Below are positions 3,184 through 38,093 of a stretch of 64,000 nt of DNA, piece by piece (positions within the stretch are counted from its first letter, which is position 1; every line of letters begins with the position of its first letter). The notes beneath the pieces were generated by a model that worked only from the letters and a program-made list of their open reading frames with translations, was not told the DNA's origin and did not search any database. The translations under genes and the position numbers were made by a program. The DNA comes from Rariglobus hedericola. Its GTDB lineage: Bacteria; Verrucomicrobiota; Verrucomicrobiia; Opitutales; Opitutaceae. The DNA is taken from contig NZ_VMBG01000001.1 of NCBI RefSeq assembly GCF_007559335.1, positions 62,001 through 126,000 on the forward strand, given 5' to 3'.

Positions 3184-3846
3184 TTAACCGATTTTTTCGG
3201 TGATCAGGCCGGCGATTTTTTCCACGACCTGTTCGAGGTTGAGATAGGTGCTGTCGATATCGATGGCCCCGGAGGCGAGGACGAGCGGGGCGGTCTTACG
3301 ACTGGCATCCATGCGATCACGTTCGGCGACGGCATCGGCACGGCCCTCGAGCTCACGGCGTTTGGCGCGCGCCTCGACATCGGCATGGAGGAAGAGGCGC
3401 AGATCGGCATTGGGAAAAATGATGGAGCCGATGTCGCGGCCTTCCATGATGAGACCGCGAAAACCATGAGACCGGGCGACGTCGGCTTGTCCGCGCTGAT
3501 ACGTGAGCAGGGCGGTGCGAACTTCGGGGATGGCGGCAAAATGCGAGACTGCAGCGGTGACTTCGGGGCCGCGGATCTCGGCCTCGGGCGCGAGACGTCC
3601 GCCGATTTCCATGCGGGCGGCGCGACCTTCTACGCGGGTGCCGAGCGTGATGGAGGGCAGGGCGGCTTTGACTTCATCGACCTGGTCGACGCGCAGACCG
3701 CGGCGAAGCAACTCGGCGGTGATGGCACGGTAGTAAGAGCCGGTGTCAACGTGGAGAAAGTTGAACCGTTCGCTAAGGGCTCGTGAGGTGGAGGATTTGC
3801 CGGAGGCGGCGCCGCCGTCGATGGCGACCAGGAGAAAAGAGGACAT
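3184..3846 (-). CDS. cmk: Cytidylate kinase
   Basis: 220 residues from an ATG whose A is shared with the aroA stop codon (TGATG), which argues for translational coupling and fixes the start. The P-loop is GGAASGKSS close to the N-terminus, followed by DTGSYYRAIT (the CMP-binding DTGxxYR motif) and EGRDIGSIIFP. These are the standard landmarks of bacterial CMP kinase, which phosphorylates CMP and dCMP. The frame is open upstream inside aroA, but that part has no cmk similarity. The aroA-cmk pairing is common in bacteria. Confidence 0.96.
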   Translation of the reverse strand: MSSFLLVAIDGGAASGKSSTSRALSERFNFLHVDTGSYYRAITAELLRRGLRVDQVDEVKAALPSITLGTRVEGRAARMEIGGRLAPEAEIRGPEVTAAVSHFAAIPEVRTALLTYQRGQADVARSHGFRGLIMEGRDIGSIIFPNADLRLFLHADVEARAKRRELEGRADAVAERDRMDASRKTAPLVLASGAIDIDSTYLNLEQVVEKIAGLITEKIG

Positions 3847-5195
3847 CAGGAGGGTGAAAGGGATTTTAGACGCAGCGATTCGAGCAGTTCGAAGAAGTGC
3901 GGGAAGGTCTTGGCGCAGCAGGCCGGGTCTTTGATTGAGATCCAAGGGCGGCCGTCGCCGTGGAGATCGTGGCAGCCGAGGATGCCAAAGCTCATGGCGA
4001 AACGATGGTCGCCGTAGGTCTCGATTTCGACACCGGACTTGAGCGGTTGAGGCGTGATGGTGAGGCCGTCGCCGTCGGTGTGCTCATCGACCTCCTGACC
4101 GAGCTTACGCAATTCACGCACCATGCCGGCGACGCGGTCGGTTTCTTGTTTGCGCGAGTGGGCGATACCGGTGATGCGGGTCGGGCCGGTGAGCAGCGGA
4201 GCAATCGCGGCGAGGGTGAGGAAGGTGTCGGAGAACTCGTTGAAGTTTTCGGAGACGCCGGAGAGAGGCGAGCCGGAGGTGAAGGAGACTTCGAGTCCGC
4301 GAGGAGATGACGTGGCGGAGAGGCCGACGCGTTTCATGACCTCGACGAATTGCGTATCGCCCTGAAGGCCTTCGTGAAGGTTGAGGAGGTTGAGCGAGCC
4401 GCCGGTGACGAGAGGGAGGACGACGTAGTAGCTGGCGGCTGTAGCGTCGGGCTCGATGGAGTAGGTGCCGGCGAGCGTGTAAGGTTTTTTGGCGACTTCC
4501 CAGGATGCGGAGGCTGGGTTGAAATCAGCGGCGCCGCCGAATTGGTTGACCATGTTCTTCGTCATCTGGACGAAGGGCTCGCGGACTTTGGTGGAAAGTT
4601 TGATGCGGATGGGTGCATCGGCGAGCGGGGCGACCATGAGGAGGCCGGACAACATCTGGCTGCTTTCGCTGGCGTCGATGAAGACCTCTCCGCGGCGGAG
4701 GCCCTTGGCGTGGATTTCGAGCGGGAAAAAACCGTCGACGCCGGTGCAACGGACGTCGGCACCGAGGGCGCGGAGGGCGTCGATGAGGCCCTTCATCGGG
4801 CGTTTGCGCATCTGGGGAATTCCGTCGATGCGGTAGATGCCGCGAGGGGCGGCGGCACAGAGCGCCGTGAGAAAGCGGGCGGCGGTGCCGGCGAGTCCGA
4901 CGTGGAGATCGACGGGCGCGGGTTTCGTGAAGCCGTTGGATTGGTCAGAGACCTCGATGGTGCCGGCGTCGGCATTGGCTTGAACGGTGAAACCGAGGGC
5001 TTTGAGCGCCTCGACCATCAGGTGAGTGTCTTCGCTGAAGAGTGCGCCGGTGAGCACGACCTTTTCCTTGCACAGGGCGGCGAGCAGGAGTGCGCGGTTG
5101 GTGAGGCTTTTGGAGCCGGGCAGGGTGACTTCGCCGCGCACGGGGCGGGTGAAGGGCTGGATGGGAAGAATGTCCGGGAGCTTCGTCGGCGACAT
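3846..5195 (-). CDS. aroA: 3-phosphoshikimate 1-carboxyvinyltransferase (EPSP synthase)
   Basis: 449 residues from the ATG at 5195; an in-frame TTG seven codons upstream (5216) is possible. It makes EPSP from shikimate-3-phosphate and phosphoenolpyruvate in the chorismate pathway. Visible motifs are LPGSKSLTNRALLLAALC, GLAGTAARFLTALCA (the LGNAGTAMR-like segment), QMRKRPMKGLIDALR and SDTFLTLAAIAPLL, then HSRKQETDRVAGM and TYGDHRFAMSF near the C-terminus. It is placed between tyrA (21-45 bp upstream, depending on the start) and cmk (1-base overlap), so one operon is likely. Confidence 0.96.
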   Translation of the reverse strand: MSPTKLPDILPIQPFTRPVRGEVTLPGSKSLTNRALLLAALCKEKVVLTGALFSEDTHLMVEALKALGFTVQANADAGTIEVSDQSNGFTKPAPVDLHVGLAGTAARFLTALCAAAPRGIYRIDGIPQMRKRPMKGLIDALRALGADVRCTGVDGFFPLEIHAKGLRRGEVFIDASESSQMLSGLLMVAPLADAPIRIKLSTKVREPFVQMTKNMVNQFGGAADFNPASASWEVAKKPYTLAGTYSIEPDATAASYYVVLPLVTGGSLNLLNLHEGLQGDTQFVEVMKRVGLSATSSPRGLEVSFTSGSPLSGVSENFNEFSDTFLTLAAIAPLLTGPTRITGIAHSRKQETDRVAGMVRELRKLGQEVDEHTDGDGLTITPQPLKSGVEIETYGDHRFAMSFGILGCHDLHGDGRPWISIKDPACCAKTFPHFFELLESLRLKSLSPS

Positions 5196-9524: not shown

Positions 9525-9528
9525 GGTT

Positions 9529-9581
9529 AGCTTAACCTCTCTCCGGACGAAGGACTGGGAAAGTCCTGAAAATGAGGCGGC
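9529..9581. repeat. Left direct repeat of the tRNA-His island (displaced tRNA 3' end and terminator)
   Basis: This 53-nt segment matches 13585-13637 at 45 of 53 positions. The first 20 bases, AGCTTAACCTCTCTCCGGAC, are identical. It preserves the stem of the tRNA-His terminator (AGGACT/AGTCCT) with a different loop. On the minus strand its end reads ATGCCGCCTCA, next to AGGCCGCCCCA at the intact tRNA, as expected of a displaced tRNA 3' end. Confidence 0.8.
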
Positions 9582-9670
9582 ATACCGTTGCGACGGTGCC
9601 ACGTTTGAGCACACCGCATACGCCGATCCCGCCCGGACACGCCGGTCACCGATGGCGGCGAAGCTAGCAA

Positions 9671-9964
9671 CTAGCGCACTGAGCCCGTTTCAAGCGTCGT
9701 TAAAATAATGAAAGAGATAGTGCCGACGCCCATAAATAAGACACCCCCAACGATCCAGAAGAGGTAAGTAACATTTCTCTTCAGGACGGGAAATCTAGCA
9801 TAGTAGCCGCATCCATAAAACAGCGGGATGAATATCCAAAAAACCCGTGCTTGTTTGAATCCAATGCCTAGAAACAGGACAATAGGTAGGATCGTGATAG
9901 GAACCAAGTGCTTCCAATAAAGGGAGAGCCCTTCGCTAAGAGGTATACGTGAGCTGGCCTTCAT
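9671..9964 (-). CDS. Small membrane protein of the island, unknown
   Basis: 97 residues with three likely membrane helices: LVPITILPIVLFLGIGF, VFWIFIPLFYGCGYYA and YLFWIVGGVLFMGVGTISFIIL. The short N-terminus SSRIPLSEGLSLYWKHL is amphipathic. I do not recognise the family. It is the last gene of the minus-strand cassette, 51 bp after the preceding gene, with a 22-bp palindrome in between, so it might be partly uncoupled from it. Confidence 0.6.
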   Translation of the reverse strand: MKASSRIPLSEGLSLYWKHLVPITILPIVLFLGIGFKQARVFWIFIPLFYGCGYYARFPVLKRNVTYLFWIVGGVLFMGVGTISFIILTTLETGSVR

Positions 9965-10015: not shown

Positions 10016-10393
10016 TTACGCCCCAAATTCCTCAAAGGGAAGCGGGGTGGGCGAGAGAAGCCAGGACAGGCCGTCCTCGTGCTGTTTGACGTGCCAAACG
10101 ATGACACCAAGAGGGCCAATTTTTGCGGCCATGGGAAAGACGAAAGGCGGAATCCACAGCATGGATAACTTTCCCGTTCCTTCCCAGCCAGCTTCCGTGA
10201 AACGATTTCCCACCGCATGAACCAATCTTTTTCTCAGGGTTTCATCGGGGATGATCTCTTCAGGTGTCCGGAGGAAGTTCAGATTGTCGATATACTCAAA
10301 ACCGTAGAGGCGAAAGGAACCTATCTCTGCCGGAGTATAAGTAATGAGCTCTCCTACGGTGACTGAGTAAGCGTCAAATAATGGATGGTTCAT
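10016..10393 (-). CDS. Island protein of unknown function, soluble
   Basis: 125 residues, no membrane segment, rich in aromatic residues. The N-terminus (FDAYSVTVGELITYTPAEIGSF) is followed by a helical middle (ETLRKRLVHAVGNRFTEAGW) and a strand-rich C-terminus with WEGTGKLSMLWIPPF and GVIVWHVKQHEDGLSWLLS. I do not recognise a named family. The TAA of the upstream gene directly precedes this ATG, so the two are probably co-translated. Its small size and position between two membrane proteins would suit an immunity or partner protein, but that is speculation. Confidence 0.65.
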   Translation of the reverse strand: MNHPLFDAYSVTVGELITYTPAEIGSFRLYGFEYIDNLNFLRTPEEIIPDETLRKRLVHAVGNRFTEAGWEGTGKLSMLWIPPFVFPMAAKIGPLGVIVWHVKQHEDGLSWLLSPTPLPFEEFGA

Positions 10394-10765
10394 TTACGGG
10401 CGTTTTCGTTTCGCCAGGTCGGCGGTGATTTCGTCGGCGATGCTGCGTGACGTGCGGGGTGGTGGAGCCGGGGGAAAGACTCCGGATTGGGGTGCGGTCG
10501 GAAACAGGTCGTCTTCGCTGGGCTTGAAAATCCAATAGGCGAGGGGGCCAAGGACGGGGATTAAAATAACGAGCATCATCCATGATGCATTGTTCTTGGT
10601 CGGTCCTTTCGATGCGCAGTGAACGCCGGTGGCCGTTGCGAAGATGAAATACACAATGACGGCGATAGCGTAGGCTATCATGAACTGCTCTGCCTGCTCC
10701 ATCTCCCGCTGCATCGATTGCGTGATCGCGTCTAGCTGCTTCGTGAATTGCTGGGACGGGTCCAT
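10394..10765 (-). CDS. Two-helix membrane protein of the island
   Basis: 123 residues. A helical N-terminus (FTKQLDAITQSMQREMEQAEQF) leads to two membrane helices, IAYAIAVIVYFIFATATGV and ASWMMLVILIPVLGPLAYWIF, with CASKGPTKNN between them. The second helix ending in PVLGPLAYWIFKP resembles the phospholipase D-nuclease N-terminal (PLDc_N) membrane motif, without a catalytic domain. The C-terminal tail is proline-rich and basic (PPAPPPRTS, LAKRKRP) and probably cytoplasmic. Its start overlaps the stop of the zinc-finger gene by one base (TAATG), so translation is likely coupled. Confidence 0.7.
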   Translation of the reverse strand: MDPSQQFTKQLDAITQSMQREMEQAEQFMIAYAIAVIVYFIFATATGVHCASKGPTKNNASWMMLVILIPVLGPLAYWIFKPSEDDLFPTAPQSGVFPPAPPPRTSRSIADEITADLAKRKRP

Positions 10766-10923
10766 TATTTATCGGGTTTTTGAGCAAGGATGCGGTTACA
10801 GATGACGACGCACTCGTTGCAGATGGAAACGACCGGTATCTGTTCTGTGGCTACAATGAGCTTTTCGATTTGGGTCTGGTCCTTTCCGCAGAAGGAGCAT
10901 TTCGCGAGGGTTTTCTTGGGCAT
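10765..10923 (-). CDS. Stand-alone ClpX-type C4 zinc finger
   Basis: 52 residues, starting [18 protein letters not shown] and continuing IEKLIV...[13 protein letters not shown]. The pattern C-x2-C, about 23 residues, C-x2-C matches the N-terminal zinc-binding domain of ClpX, where it forms a dimer and contacts adaptors and some substrates. In ClpX this domain precedes an AAA+ ATPase; here nothing follows, as the stop comes at [10 protein letters not shown]. One-base overlap with the next gene. By family logic it could pair with or compete for ClpX, or be a small zinc protein in its own right. The call of the fold is firm; the function is not. Confidence 0.8.
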
Positions 10924-10961: not shown

Positions 10962-11690
10962 TTAAACGTCACTCAAGATGCGCTCAACGGATATTATTTT
11001 GGTCATTAAGACCTTTAGTGAATCTGCTGAGTGGTGCCCTAGCCATCGAGTGAAGTAGTCGCACATTTCTGGAATCTCGGATTCCTTCGAAAGCAGGATG
11101 TATCGGATATCTTCCGGTTTAACCTCTAATGCGTAGTTGGCCTTCAGTGATTCGTTGATCTGGCCGCGTATTTTTTTGTTCCGGTAAGTTTTTTCATCTA
11201 TCGGAGCGGACCCTGATCGGATGTCGATCGGTGGCACATAGCGCCATTCACATTCCTCGTAAAAATTGCGATGAACGTGGTTTCTTCCGTTTCTTTTATC
11301 TTTGCCCTTAAGTGGCTTTGTGTGGCCCAGAGTGAAGGCCATGGCTGCAAAGTCATTTCGGCTTTTCTTTTTTTTCTGATTTGCGAGTGCGTGAAGGGCT
11401 CCTGCGAATGGCGAGTTCGAATTGATGTAAACTACGGGGCTTAGGCCTTGTTCAATTGCCCATTCCTGAGACATCCCAATTCCATAGTTTCCGTAATAGT
11501 TTAAATGGCTTGTCAGTCTGCTAATGGGAATGTCGCAGAAGCAAACAACGGGGAACGCCCAATGGCTTTGGTTTAACCATGTTTGATCTTCGAGTGATAA
11601 CGTCGGCCAGAATCCATTTTTCAGAATACTCTGAATCGTCCCTACGTTTTTTGTGAAGTGAAAGAGGGAAGACGTTTTCGCGGTGCTCAT
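10962..11690 (-). CDS. AbiGi-family abortive infection protein
   Basis: 242 residues. The N-terminal pattern SSLFHFTKNVGTIQSILKNGFWP, then PVVCFCDIPISRLTSHLNYYGNYGIG and SQEWAIEQGLSPVVYINSNSPF, fits what I know of the AbiGi family, described as the antitoxin half of the lactococcal AbiG phage-exclusion system. Later, HRNFYEECEWRYVPP and KPEDIRYILLSKESEIP also fit. The segment is visibly AT-richer than the flanking chromosome, which supports transfer. No AbiGii-like toxin gene of the usual size is next to it; the neighbours are a small HTH-like gene and the zinc-finger gene. Family call by eye, not by search. Confidence 0.75.
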   Translation of the reverse strand: MSTAKTSSLFHFTKNVGTIQSILKNGFWPTLSLEDQTWLNQSHWAFPVVCFCDIPISRLTSHLNYYGNYGIGMSQEWAIEQGLSPVVYINSNSPFAGALHALANQKKKKSRNDFAAMAFTLGHTKPLKGKDKRNGRNHVHRNFYEECEWRYVPPIDIRSGSAPIDEKTYRNKKIRGQINESLKANYALEVKPEDIRYILLSKESEIPEMCDYFTRWLGHHSADSLKVLMTKIISVERILSDV

Positions 11691-11704: not shown

Positions 11705-11983
11705 TTACTGCTGGGTCTCGCCTCTGCCACAGGCGAGGCCGATGATAAGCCCGATTGCGCCTTCGCGGCCGATGGCATTTCGAAGCGCCTGTGCGTTAGA
11801 TGTGGTTGTTCCGAGTGCGGAAGCGATGCTCGGGGATGCTCGACCACCAATGAACGTGGTTATACTGCTGCTGGTAGTGCCTAGGCGGCTAGCAAGGCCG
11901 GGGGAACCTTGGCCATGAGAGATTAGTTTTTCTATGCTGGAACTGATGGTGCCGGCTTTGTGTGCGATTCCGATGTAGCTCAT
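11705..11983 (-). CDS. Small Ser/Gly/Ala-rich, possibly HTH-type protein of the island
   Basis: 92 residues beginning MSYIGIAHKAGTISSSIEKL. The middle, LASRLGTTSSSITTFIGGRA and then IASALGTTTSNAQALRNAIG, contains two imperfect repeats of a pattern (A-S-x-L-G-T-T) that could be turns of helix-turn-helix units. The C-terminus is GAIGLIIGLACG and hydrophobic. I do not recognise the family. The stop lies 14 bp before the AbiGi start, so co-transcription is likely. An inverted repeat sits 21 bp upstream of its start. Confidence 0.55.
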   Translation of the reverse strand: MSYIGIAHKAGTISSSIEKLISHGQGSPGLASRLGTTSSSITTFIGGRASPSIASALGTTTSNAQALRNAIGREGAIGLIIGLACGRGETQQ

Positions 11984-12044: not shown

Positions 12045-12263
12045 TTAACTTGCCTTCTTCGCCACCTTCGTTGGTGCTGCGGCAACAATCTTAACCGGCA
12101 CTTCAACTTTGCCGCTTTCCGCTACGTGGTCACAGAAAGCTTCGAGCAGATAGGTCAGAATTGTGCTGTCGTTTGTCAGATGCTTTCCGTGAATGAAATT
12201 AAGCCGTTCTCTTAGCGCAGGTGTGATGCGGCCGTTTATAGAGGCGCTTTTTTTCTCGTCCAT
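12045..12263 (-). CDS. Small ribbon-helix-helix-like protein
   Basis: 72 residues from ATG at 12263; a TTG 12 codons upstream is the alternative. MDEKKSASINGRITPALRERLNFI has the look of a short beta-strand followed by a helix, and DSTILTYLLEAFCDHV a second helix, the order of a ribbon-helix-helix DNA-binding fold. The C-terminal tail is alanine- and lysine-rich (APTKVAKKAS). It is divergent from the recombinase gene with about 140 bp between the two starts, so it may control that promoter or act in excision. Confidence 0.55.
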   Translation of the reverse strand: MDEKKSASINGRITPALRERLNFIHGKHLTNDSTILTYLLEAFCDHVAESGKVEVPVKIVAAAPTKVAKKAS

Positions 12264-12318
12264 GGATTGGCATTCGGGGCGAAAGTCGGCTGTATTCAAC
12301 TTTGTGCTTGTGCTAGAA

Positions 12319-12342: not shown

Positions 12343-12404
12343 ACCGAGCCGCTGAGTGCTCTTGGTCCGGAAGGCCAAGACCTCGGTGGTGTCGGTGCCT
12401 TCCA

Positions 12405-13694
12405 ATGACCGAACACGTTTTCAAGCCGGTGCGCGTTTCCAAGGGTAAGCGGATCCAATCCCGCTTGTTCTACGGGCGCTATTCGCTCGCCCGTGGTGAG
12501 CGTCCCGTGACGGTCGCGCTGGAAACCGTCGATATTCGGGTTGCCCGTGCAAAGCTCCGGAAACTTATCGTGGAAAAGCAAAGCGAGCGTCTGGGCCTGA
12601 TTGCTCCGAAAGTCATGCGGGATGCGGCGGCAATGCCCTTTGCGGCGGTTCTGGGGCAGTATCGCGCAACGCTCCTCTCGTTGGTCACGCGGCTCCATGC
12701 GCAAGGTTCCGTGCGTCGTATCGAGCGGGCAGGGAAGGGCGCGGGCTGGCGTGTCCTGGGAGACGTGACCCCGCTGTCGTGGGCCAAGTGGGTTTCCACG
12801 CTCACGTGCTCGGCCAAGACGCGCAAAGAATATCAGACTTCCGTGATGGCGTTCCTCAATTGGCTGGTTCGCACAAAGCAAATCGCGGTCAACCCATTGG
12901 CCGGTGTCGATAAGGTCGAAACACGCGGCAAGATGGTCCGCCCCGTGCGTGCTTTCACGGATGACGAATTGCGCCGCCTGTTGGCCGTCGCGGGCCGTCG
13001 TCGCTCGCTTTACCTGCTCCTGCTTTACACCGGTCTGCGTCGTAACGAGGCGCGGTCGCTGGTCTGGGACGACGTCAAGCTGGATGCGGTTCGGCCCTAC
13101 TTGCTGGCTCGTGACACGACGACAAAGAGCGGGGTTAAGCGGGCGGTGCCGCTGCATCCTGCCTTGGTGGTCGTTTTGACTGCGCTTCGGCCGTTGCCTC
13201 CGGTCGATGCATCGATGCGTCCGCTGTGGCCGATCTTCCCAAAGCATCGCACGCTCATGGCCGATCTGGTTCGCGCAAAGATCGAGCACGTGGACAAGCT
13301 GGGCCGCGTTGTCCACTTCCACGCCTTCCGGAAAACCTTTCAAACGCTCGGCGTTCGGTCGGGTGTAAATCAACGGGCCGCGCAGGAAATGCTCGGGCAC
13401 TCTGACCCGTCATTAACGGCCAACGTTTACACCGATGTAGCGGCGCTGAACCTACACGGCGAAGTGGCAAAGCTGCCGTGGTTGGGTGATGCAGCGGAGC
13501 GTGCAGTCGTTTCGGCTCCATCGGCTGCACTCTCCCTAGGTAAGCCCGAAAAAGTCGCGGGGCTTGTTTTGGAGCTTCTGAGTGAGCTTAACCTCTCTCC
13601 GGACAAAGGACTTATGGAGTCCTTAAAATGGGGCGGCCTACGGGATTCGAACCCGCGACCCCTAGAATCACAATCTAGTGCTCTAACCAACTGA
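12405..13694 (+). CDS. Tyrosine recombinase / integrase of the island
   Basis: 429 residues from ATG at 12405; the frame is open further upstream without family-like sequence. The N-terminal half has the SAM-like core-binding region (AKTRKEYQTSVMAFLNWLVRTKQIAVNPL). The catalytic domain shows Arg in YTGLRRNEARSL (about residue 212), a Lys hairpin TTTKSGVKRAVPLHP, the H-x2-R motif HAFRKTF (about 305), LGHSD (about 330) and the nucleophile Tyr in NVYTDV (about 340). All key residues are present. The last 22 codons are read antisense through tRNA-His, ending inside the tRNA gene, so the normal end of the protein is set by the integration site. Confidence 0.92.
   Translation: MTEHVFKPVRVSKGKRIQSRLFYGRYSLARGERPVTVALETVDIRVARAKLRKLIVEKQSERLGLIAPKVMRDAAAMPFAAVLGQYRATLLSLVTRLHAQGSVRRIERAGKGAGWRVLGDVTPLSWAKWVSTLTCSAKTRKEYQTSVMAFLNWLVRTKQIAVNPLAGVDKVETRGKMVRPVRAFTDDELRRLLAVAGRRRSLYLLLLYTGLRRNEARSLVWDDVKLDAVRPYLLARDTTTKSGVKRAVPLHPALVVVLTALRPLPPVDASMRPLWPIFPKHRTLMADLVRAKIEHVDKLGRVVHFHAFRKTFQTLGVRSGVNQRAAQEMLGHSDPSLTANVYTDVAALNLHGEVAKLPWLGDAAERAVVSAPSAALSLGKPEKVAGLVLELLSELNLSPDKGLMESLKWGGLRDSNPRPLESQSSALTN
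13585..13637. repeat. Right direct repeat of the tRNA-His island
   Basis: Matches 9529-9581 at 45 of 53 positions, with the first 20 identical. It covers the tRNA-His terminator, the encoded CCA and part of the acceptor stem, and also the 3' end of the recombinase frame. Confidence 0.8.
13606..13624 (-). terminator. Terminator of tRNA-His
   Basis: On the minus strand AAGGACT-CCATA-AGTCCTT forms a 7-bp stem 4 nt after the CCA end and is followed by TTT in GTCC context after one base pair shift. The stem is kept in the left repeat while the loop is not, which supports structural selection. Confidence 0.6.
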
Positions 13695-13706
13695 GCTAAG
13701 GCCGCC
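13629..13706 (-). tRNA. tRNA-His (GTG)
   Basis: On the minus strand the sequence begins with the extra G(-1), then the acceptor GCGGCCT pairs with AGGCCGC. The discriminator is C73, as tRNA-His requires, and CCA is encoded. The anticodon arm CTAGA-TTGTGAT-TCTAG gives GTG. The T arm reads GCGGG-TTCGAAT-CCCGT. It is the integration target of the island to its left and remains intact. Confidence 0.97.
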
Positions 13707-35810: not shown

Positions 35811-38093
35811 TCAAGCCTTGGGCGGGGCGGCCGGGGAGGCGGATGCGAGAATTTCGACCTGAAGCGGTTTGGTGGTTTCGAGGTGCACGTCGCGCTGAGG
35901 AAAGGCCATCACGATGCCGGCTTTGGTGAAGACTTCCGCGATGCGGTGGCGCATTTCGCTTTCGATATCTTTGCGTCCTTCGAGTGCGCTCCAGAACGAC
36001 GCTTCAAAGGCGAGAGCGCTGTCGCCGAAATCGGTGAAGGTCGCAAAGGGTGCGGGTTCTTTCATCGCGCCTTCGAGGCCGGTCATGACCTCTTCCAAGA
36101 GTCGTTCGACCTCGCGGGTGGGTGAACCGTAGGCGACGCTGACGCGGATGCGGGTGCGGATAACGTCGTCGGAGAGCGTGAGGTTGACGACGTTTTCTTC
36201 GAGCAGGCGGCTGTTGGGGACGATGACGTGCGTGTTGTCGCGCGAGCGCACGAGCGTGCTGCGAGGACCGATAGTTTCGACAGTGACCTGCTGGCCGTTG
36301 ATCTCGAGAACGTCGCCCTGATTGATCGGGCGTTCGACGAGGAGGATGATGCCGCTGATGAAATTACTGATGAGGTTTTGACTGCCGAAGCCGATGCCCA
36401 CGGCAAGGGCGCCGCTCACCACCGAGAATTGTGTGAGGGAGAGGTGAAAGAGATTGGTGGCGGTGAGCAGGACGATGAGGAACAGCGCGTAGAATGAGAG
36501 GGTTTGCCAGGCGGCGCGACGGCCGGTGTTCATCCCGAATCGCTTAAAAACGGCGCTGCCGATCAAGGTGCTCGTGCGACGCGAGAACCAGTGGCCGGCG
36601 ATGATGAGCACGATGACCGTGAGAATGGTGTTTACGCGGATGGGCTGGTCGGCGATGGAGAACACCTCGTAGTTCCACCCTGCGGCGATGCCGGACTGTG
36701 CGGAGGTAAACGTTTCACCCCACGAGAACGTGCTCACGCGCGCGCCGAGTTCTTCGTTGAGGCGATTGCGGGCGGTGGCGAGCTCTGTGAGGTCCGCGAG
36801 GTTTCGTTCGTTGATGGCGACGCCGGCGGTGAGATGTTTCACGCGGTCGGAGACCCAGTCTTGCTGGCGAGCTGGCAAGCTTGAGTCGGCCAGGCGGGCT
36901 TGGAGTGCCTGCAACTCCTGACGATTTTTGCGCAGTTCGGCGAAGAGCGGCCGGCGTTCTTTCGGGATTCGGGCAAGGGCTTCGTCGTTGGCCTTGGCGG
37001 TGGTTTTGAAATCGGCGGATGAGCCGGCATCGGTGAGCACGAGGATGCGTTTGCGGAGCACGTCGGTGAGGGTGGCCTGGCGTTCGCGCTGCGCGGTGAG
37101 GGCGCTGAGCATGAGATTAACGGTCTGGCGGTCGGCGCGGCGTGATTCGAGTTCGGCATCGGTTTCGGGGCTCTTGGTGGCGGCGGAATCACGACGCTCG
37201 GCGGTGACGACGAGCCGCGCGACCTGTTCGGAGAGTTCGCGGGTTTTGGCGATTTCGAGATCCAGCTCGGCGATGCGTTTATCTTGTTTGGCCTGGGCTG
37301 CGACGAGGTCGCTCTCACCGATCACGAGGTGGGCGTGTAGCCATTCCAGATCAGGCAGGAGCAGAGCGATTTTAGGAGCCAGCAGTGATTGCTGGAATTT
37401 GAGGGTGGCGAGGGATTTTTCGTGGAGAACGATGGTTTCGCGGGCGAGGCGCGACTCGAGCTCGGCGAGGCGGAGCGCGCCTTGCGTGGCGATGCGGTTG
37501 GCGGATTCCTGCGCGGATTCTTTGGCGGTGCGGCGGAGGCGGTCCTTGGCTTCGAGATCGTCGCGGGCGTCTTGAAGCGATGTGGCGACATTTTCGATGT
37601 CGGTTTTGAGCGCGGCTTTCGCGTGCAGGAGATAATCGCGCTGATCGTAGAGCTGATCGAGGAGCACAAGGCCTTGAGGTGGCTTGAGGCGCACCTCGGG
37701 CGGGCGGGGATTTTGCGCAAGGTCAGTGAGTTCGGCGGATTCTTTGGCGAGATCGGCGGCGTGTTGCAGCGTGTGCAGTTGTTCGGTGTAGGTGCTGTCA
37801 ATACGGCCGAGCAGGACGATCTCCTGGGTTAACCAGAGGGTGGAATCTTCGGCCTGGTTGGCGGGGAGCTTTTCGAAGTCCACGCGGGTGCGGTCGATCT
37901 CTTTTTGCAATGAGGCCCGTCGCTCGGTGACGAGAGTGGGCGTCAATTCGGCTTCGGAGGCTTGGGCGGGCGCGGGGTTTTTCCCAGTAAGGGCATCGGT
38001 CGGGAGCGCGGCGAGGAGTGGCAGTTGCGCGAGGGAAATGCCGATGGCAGCGAAGAAATAAATCGAAGCGCGCAGAAACGAGTGTGTGGACAT
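35811..38093 (-). CDS. Large MscS-family mechanosensitive channel
   Basis: 760 residues from ATG at 38093. A signal peptide or first helix (FFAAIGISLAQLPLLAALP) is followed by about 430 residues of periplasmic coiled coil (ESAELTDLAQNPRPPEVRLK and many charged heptads). Membrane helices come at about 500-600, with the pore helix LSLTQFSVVSGALAVGIGFGSQNLISNFISG. The MscS beta domain is LLVERPINQGDVLEING, VETIGPRSTLVRSRDNTHVIVPNS. This is a medium-length MscK/YbdG-like architecture opening on osmotic downshift. Confidence 0.92.
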   Translation of the reverse strand: MSTHSFLRASIYFFAAIGISLAQLPLLAALPTDALTGKNPAPAQASEAELTPTLVTERRASLQKEIDRTRVDFEKLPANQAEDSTLWLTQEIVLLGRIDSTYTEQLHTLQHAADLAKESAELTDLAQNPRPPEVRLKPPQGLVLLDQLYDQRDYLLHAKAALKTDIENVATSLQDARDDLEAKDRLRRTAKESAQESANRIATQGALRLAELESRLARETIVLHEKSLATLKFQQSLLAPKIALLLPDLEWLHAHLVIGESDLVAAQAKQDKRIAELDLEIAKTRELSEQVARLVVTAERRDSAATKSPETDAELESRRADRQTVNLMLSALTAQRERQATLTDVLRKRILVLTDAGSSADFKTTAKANDEALARIPKERRPLFAELRKNRQELQALQARLADSSLPARQQDWVSDRVKHLTAGVAINERNLADLTELATARNRLNEELGARVSTFSWGETFTSAQSGIAAGWNYEVFSIADQPIRVNTILTVIVLIIAGHWFSRRTSTLIGSAVFKRFGMNTGRRAAWQTLSFYALFLIVLLTATNLFHLSLTQFSVVSGALAVGIGFGSQNLISNFISGIILLVERPINQGDVLEINGQQVTVETIGPRSTLVRSRDNTHVIVPNSRLLEENVVNLTLSDDVIRTRIRVSVAYGSPTREVERLLEEVMTGLEGAMKEPAPFATFTDFGDSALAFEASFWSALEGRKDIESEMRHRIAEVFTKAGIVMAFPQRDVHLETTKPLQVEILASASPAAPPKA

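Follow-up and report, generated by a model that had tools for sequence, protein, structure and literature searches.

A free-standing ClpX-type zinc domain encoded on a small tRNA-His element of Rariglobus hedericola

Results

Gene content of the element

The window analysed here is a stretch of 64,000 nt of the Rariglobus hedericola contig NZ_VMBG01000001.1 (positions 62,001 to 126,000). The part of it that concerns us is a small element at a tRNA-His gene, whose features are as follows, in window coordinates:

9526-9585, + strand: direct repeat of 60 nt, left copy, probable attachment site
9671-9964, - strand: hydrophobic protein of 97 aa, in which hydropathy (count 2) suggests about two hydrophobic segments; no family matched in Pfam, NCBIfam, PADLOC or PHROG
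10016-10393, - strand: 125-aa protein encoded immediately downstream of the membrane gene; matches phrog_32290, a family of unknown function, at E 1.1e-11, and nothing in Pfam, NCBIfam or PADLOC
10394-10765, - strand: membrane protein of 123 aa, in which a crude hydropathy count (2) suggests about two hydrophobic segments; weak PLDc_N match (PF13396, E 1.2e-5; 25.6 bits, cut-off 23.3)
10765-10923, - strand: 52-aa stand-alone ClpX-type C4 zinc domain (Pfam, PHROG, PDB sequence match, AF2/Foldseek)
10962-11690, - strand: AbiGi family protein, 242 aa (PADLOC E 2e-47, Pfam AbiGi E 4e-32)
11705-11983, - strand: 92-aa protein; no family matched in Pfam, NCBIfam, PADLOC or PHROG
12045-12299, - strand: 84-aa protein; no Pfam, NCBIfam or PADLOC family, PHROG at chance level (E 0.05)
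12402-13694, + strand: tyrosine recombinase (PF00589, E 7.7e-20); long frame from 12267, last codons inside the tRNA
13582-13641, + strand: direct repeat, right copy, 83% identical to the left; covers 13 nt at the 3' end of the tRNA
13629-13705, - strand: tRNA-His (GTG), probable integration site

The two repeats enclose 4.06 kb. The seven cargo genes between them share the minus strand and are separated by gaps of 61, 14, 38, -1, 0 and 51 nt, and such small gaps suggest that they form one operon. As the earlier note had described, the zinc-domain gene lies next to AbiGi, which ends 38 nt upstream of it, and its stop codon is overlapped by one base, at 10765, by the gene of the 123-aa membrane protein. 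Promoter and terminator scans returned no more than in shuffles.

The features by which tRNA-targeting integrative elements are known, namely a tyrosine recombinase at a tRNA and flanking direct repeats, are both present. Moreover, the cargo bins have a G+C of 0.46-0.54, versus 0.53-0.65 in the flanking bins. Together, the recombinase running into tRNA-His, the direct repeats and the lower cargo G+C support a mobile element, in agreement with the mobile cassette proposed from the sequence earlier. Relatives of the recombinase occur in 42 of the 150 family genomes at E 1e-30, and 12 of 13 fetched loci of these relatives contain a tRNA or tmRNA. When we looked for an empty site in ten loci of the genus, the gene order beyond the PIN-domain gene differed, and none of them showed the genes that lie to the right of the element. 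In six of these ten loci a tRNA-Ala(CGC) lies near the PIN-domain gene, where the Rariglobus window has the element and tRNA-His.

The 52-residue product is a ClpX-type zinc domain

The frame at 10765-10923 starts with ATG, and its product matches the Pfam family zf-C4_ClpX (PF06689) over profile positions 2-39 of 39 with 48.4 bits (E 8.7e-13; curated cut-off 27 bits). No other zinc family exceeded its own cut-off in the Pfam search. Four cysteines (C9, C12, C35 and C38) form two CxxC pairs, whose columns are invariant in a 31-row alignment. The NCBIfam ClpX equivalog models were matched over their first 44-47 positions alone, far below their cut-offs, and no AAA+ module follows the zinc domain because the stop-to-stop frame holds only 62 codons. 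Among phage protein families, PHROG 6797 (E 3e-9) and 5259 (E 1.2e-7) were matched. In a sequence search of solved structures, all of the best matches were ClpX (7 distinct sequences, E up to 0.1), the first being the ClpX zinc domain 2ds5 at E 7.4e-8. An AF2 model built on the 31-row alignment had a mean pLDDT of 86.2 and a pTM of 0.64. With this model, Foldseek placed ClpX or its zinc domain at ranks 1-4 (E 5e-3 to 2.4e-2 with probability 1.00 and TMq 0.70-0.73), the row that follows being at E 0.9; this fold test is biased to ClpX since the alignment consisted mostly of ClpX domains. The gene at 10765-10923 is thus cargo of a small recombinase-driven element and encodes a ClpX N-terminal zinc domain in free-standing form. 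Both the assignment to the C4 domain of ClpX and nothing else, and the ClpX fold, whose absence from a structure prediction would have refuted the idea of the earlier note, were upheld; its comment that so short a gene is easily missed was judged correct.

With the ClpX N-terminal zinc domain (PF06689; PDB 2ds5, 1ovx) the protein has in common the two CxxC pairs, the profile, the 2ds5 match and the predicted fold. It differs from ClpX in lacking the AAA+ module and, in the alignment, in having a longer loop between the CxxC pairs than most ClpX. In addition, a Ser replaces the Tyr or Phe that most ClpX carry just before the IC pair. Because of the longer loop and this Ser, the peptide pocket may be altered relative to ClpX.

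Relation to the host ClpX

A profile search of the organism's own genome returned a full ClpX, whose zinc-domain frame lies at C1:1179040-1179144, the copy at 10765-10923 and a third, sub-threshold match. When the 52-aa protein was used as query in a phylum search, it gave 105.6 bits with itself, about 40 with the best other sequences and 29.4 with the host ClpX. Of the 38 columns aligned between the protein and the host ClpX, 17 are identical. With these scores, a recent duplication of the host clpX was rejected. The element context and the poor match to the host ClpX support a horizontal arrival of the gene. Local pairwise scores, taken for five selected pairs, were 115-120 with the lone domains of genomes G182, G497 and G357 and of phage PdC23 (see below) versus 96.5 with the host ClpX, and would favour descent from another stand-alone lineage; in the phylum search, however, full-length ClpX of distant genomes scored the same (39.8-40.2 bits) as the lone domain of G182 (40 bits).

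The gene might also be a functionless remnant of a ClpX gene, translated or not. The window copy is a singleton and a relative, genome G245, has a split clpX, both of which fit such decay. By contrast, the start, the stop and the four cysteines are intact, the operon spacing is tight, the match to the host ClpX is poor, and stand-alone relatives elsewhere are maintained. We therefore consider a remnant improbable.

Stand-alone ClpX zinc domains in other genomes

We then asked how often the domain is found alone. In the family, 142 of 150 genomes match the ClpX zinc profile, and the stand-alone copies, contig-end cases aside, are the 52-aa protein of the window and proteins of 131 aa (G098) and 157 aa (G135). 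At E 0.001, 210 of the 387 phylum genomes match the 52-aa query; among the matches listed, nearly all are frames that code for ClpX and span roughly 400 residues or longer, and further short ones come from G182, G497 and G357. The latter are three genomes of one genus, with lone domains of 46-57 aa, the size class of our protein; within their own family, a lone zinc domain occurs in 3 of 29 genomes. An ATEQ stretch in the loop is common to the lone domains of G182 and G497. The lone zinc-domain genes of these two genomes adjoin a tRNA-Met (L154 5895-5971; L155 8143-8219). The best 80 of 248 genome-contig loci contain two short zinc-domain proteins without AAA+ (L046, L048), the rest being ClpX, ClpX cut by contig ends and one interrupted frame.

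On mobile DNA, 82 plasmid records match, a good part of which represent ClpX encoded by large replicons; among the 60 of these 82 matches that were listed, 17 are named 'ClpX C4-type zinc finger protein'. Of the 45 matching phage records some are ClpX, and stand-alone domains are present in PdC23, P88, D6, EM and Alize. Viral contigs yielded 379 relatives, and the best 80 are mostly full viral ClpX; full-length ClpX genes are frequent among the viral contigs L235-L314. At least ten of these best 80 loci are stand-alone, judged by reading the gene content of each locus (L235, L236, L242, L249, L255, L272, L275, L288, L295 and L301). At least four PHROG families match (6797, 5259, 12435 and 20296). 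The stand-alone counts leave out the split gene of G245, two cases at contig ends (G076, L287), a short frame (L050) and an ambiguous locus (L307). The first profile included G245 (L153) and other sequences, whose own hits with that profile are therefore by construction, and the profile for viral loci, built from alignments A2 and A4, contains one locus that was found again (L115 = L301).

Several of these loci deserve a remark in their own right. Pantoea phage PdC23 has an unannotated lone zinc-domain frame between pdc_057 and pdc_058 (L158 4980-5177; OL396571.1 near 36219-36362), which at 62-66 aa falls in the size class of the 52-aa protein. The zinc-domain proteins of phages P88 (L159 4809-5141) and D6 (L161 3806-4126) are labelled carboxylate-amine ligase, apparently a copied misannotation. 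Viral contig L288 has two consecutive lone zinc-domain frames, 3818-4180 and 4174-4530, the second more diverged. In G245 (L153 2991-4353) clpX is split or frameshifted, one frame carrying the zinc domain and a second, overlapping frame the AAA+ part.

Short lone domains on mobile DNA, like our 52-aa protein, are thus already a named kind: 'ClpX C4-type zinc finger protein' in RefSeq (pEC00678_4, P88, D6, EM, Alize) and PHROG 6797, 5259, 12435 and 20296. The window copy is uncommon rather than new. Full-text searches of an open-access library found no paper on lone ClpX zinc domains. Unlike the 52-aa protein, several of the phage and plasmid proteins have an extra terminal stretch, and, unlike in the window, none of their loci that we viewed lies beside AbiGi or a similar membrane gene. 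The neighbourhoods of the G182, G497, G357 and PdC23 genes also differ from that of the window.

The dN/dS ratio is about 0.07 for the chromosomal pair G182/G497. Three phage pairs gave 0.46, 0.19 and 0.34, and a further two pairs were saturated at silent sites; these values come from relatives, the window copy being a singleton. The relatives of the lone zinc domain therefore look maintained, and such constraint would favour a function, though not specifically ClpX mimicry. An alternative, plausible if tentative, is that the zinc domain has been recruited to a role that has nothing to do with ClpX, such as binding nucleic acid or a partner encoded in its own operon, of which the overlapping membrane protein would be an example. 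Several stand-alone relatives are indeed fused to extra parts: a helical stretch precedes the domain in the proteins of D6 and P88 and of the plasmids, while those of G098 and G135 are extended at the C-terminus; the neighbours vary between loci, and the loop is changed from that of ClpX. On the other hand, the core is still recognisably that of ClpX, with no other zinc family over its cut-off, and we saw no sign of nucleic-acid binding.

The AbiGi and membrane genes as partners

The earlier note had linked the zinc domain to its two neighbours and proposed to test whether its homologues recur next to them. AbiGi is rare, being present in 5 of 387 phylum genomes, and none of the four other phylum AbiGi loci has a zinc domain; two of the four lie beside genes with a known or candidate role in defence (DrmMI, PDC-M19). 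In viral contigs, the window AbiGi protein alone gave no pattern match, while a search with an alignment gave 38 loci, and none of these 38 has a zinc domain within flanks of up to 5 kb (often less). Conversely, AbiGi was absent from all 80 viral zinc-domain loci (flanks up to 4 kb). Among plasmids, no accession is common to the 60 of 82 zinc-domain records and the 40 of 83 AbiGi records that were listed. An AbiGi plasmid (NZ_CP062814.1) and a zinc-domain plasmid (pEC00678_4) belong to one replicon cluster: beside apbC and an S24 gene the former carries a type I restriction system and the latter the zinc-domain region (about 62 of 115 kb viewed). As for the 123-aa membrane protein, only two other matches, both weak, turned up in 194 genomes, and none in plasmids. 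Recurrence thus does not support a link of the zinc domain to AbiGi, nor did recurrence with the membrane gene appear. Zinc domain and AbiGi as a recurrent pair were rejected as a rule.

These counts also bear on the idea that the zinc domain is a ClpXP adaptor, which would deliver one of its neighbours, AbiGi or the membrane protein, to the protease of the host and thereby provide the adjacent effector with a control of its own. The operon-like order, with the short gap to AbiGi and the overlap with the membrane gene, fits such a role, and in ClpX the zinc domain can dimerise, according to PMC9035409. Nevertheless, AbiGi does without a zinc domain at every other phylum and viral locus counted above, the membrane gene hardly recurs, and 52 residues leave little space for a second binding part. 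We consider this adaptor role unlikely.

The AbiGi protein itself matches the NCBIfam equivalog with 50.1 bits against a cut-off of 300. Its AF2 model (pLDDT 91.4, pTM 0.87) was closest in VIA-align to DarT (ranks 1-7, Z 6.2-6.8), followed by Tpt1/KptA tRNA 2'-phosphotransferases and other ADP-ribosyltransferases. A Z score under 8 can reflect a common structural arrangement, and Foldseek gave a best E of 0.093, with no match at 0.001. Invariant columns in 27 sequences include E34, D53, H62, K125, E146, E148, W149 and R150. Because of the ADP-ribosyltransferase-like predicted fold and the invariant residues, AbiGi may tentatively be regarded as an enzyme-like effector, against its database label 'antitoxin'. 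Judged by title, no paper returned by a literature search dealt with AbiGi as an ADP-ribosyltransferase. No AbiGii partner was matched among the cargo proteins by Pfam, NCBIfam or PADLOC; the Pfam model AbiGii_2 was blank in the own genome and equally in every control. In a published screen, lactococcal AbiGi and AbiGii cloned singly showed no toxicity in E. coli (PMC3985639), which counts against AbiGi as a toxin. The earlier suggestion that the zinc domain triggers removal of an antitoxin during phage attack leans on the label; it is weakened by the predicted likeness of AbiGi to ADP-ribosyltransferases, a middling one at Z 6-7, and by the effector role that this tentatively implies.

Discussion

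We favour, at a probability of roughly 40%, the reading that the 52-aa protein is a mimic of the ClpX N-domain and acts by competition, either for ClpX or for the adaptors of ClpX. It is favoured because the profile, sequence and fold matches are to ClpX zinc domains only, and because the genome keeps a full ClpX while stand-alone versions recur and their relatives look maintained. Domains of the C4 treble-clef type also bind DNA, RNA and other proteins. These other ligands, together with the altered loop and pocket residue, weaken the mimic reading.

If the protein is such a mimic, it would dimerise with itself or pair with the zinc domain of the host ClpX. The free domain would then occupy adaptors, substrates or ClpX itself, and this occupancy would change the choice of proteins that ClpXP unfolds or degrades, in favour of the element or of a phage. 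The published record describes the ClpX zinc domain as dimerising on its own and as serving adaptors and some substrates (PMC9035409, PMC5415555). Gp53 of phage SPO1 is described in PMC6873191 as an adaptor-like modulator of ClpCP, and we count it as a precedent: a phage protein that steers a Clp protease supports the mimic reading. The precedent is an analogy alone, in that both would be mobile-element proteins redirecting a Clp protease, whereas Gp53 acts on ClpCP and has no sequence relation to the 52-aa protein. An altered ClpXP targeting, as the earlier note proposed, hence keeps its basis in a ClpX domain, recognised by profile and predicted fold, that is coded alone on a mobile element; the part that enlisted AbiGi and the membrane protein is not supported, since these partners do not recur.

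A more elaborate scheme would make the zinc-domain gene a safety catch of AbiGi, in which a ClpX-docking protein, by analogy with SocA and other antitoxins that work as proteolytic adaptors, keeps an ADP-ribosyltransferase-type effector tethered to ClpXP; should an infection disturb ClpXP, the effector would be released. This would be a very long shot.

Lone ClpX zinc domains are widespread in phages, phage-plasmids and islands, often labelled hypothetical or 'carboxylate-amine ligase', and the ones found in phages and islands might together constitute a single class of ClpX N-domain mimics. To this set the window copy adds a minimal form of 52 residues on a 4-kb element. If docking on ClpX or its adaptors holds true, such domains would give mobile DNA a simple and portable means to steer a central protease of the host.
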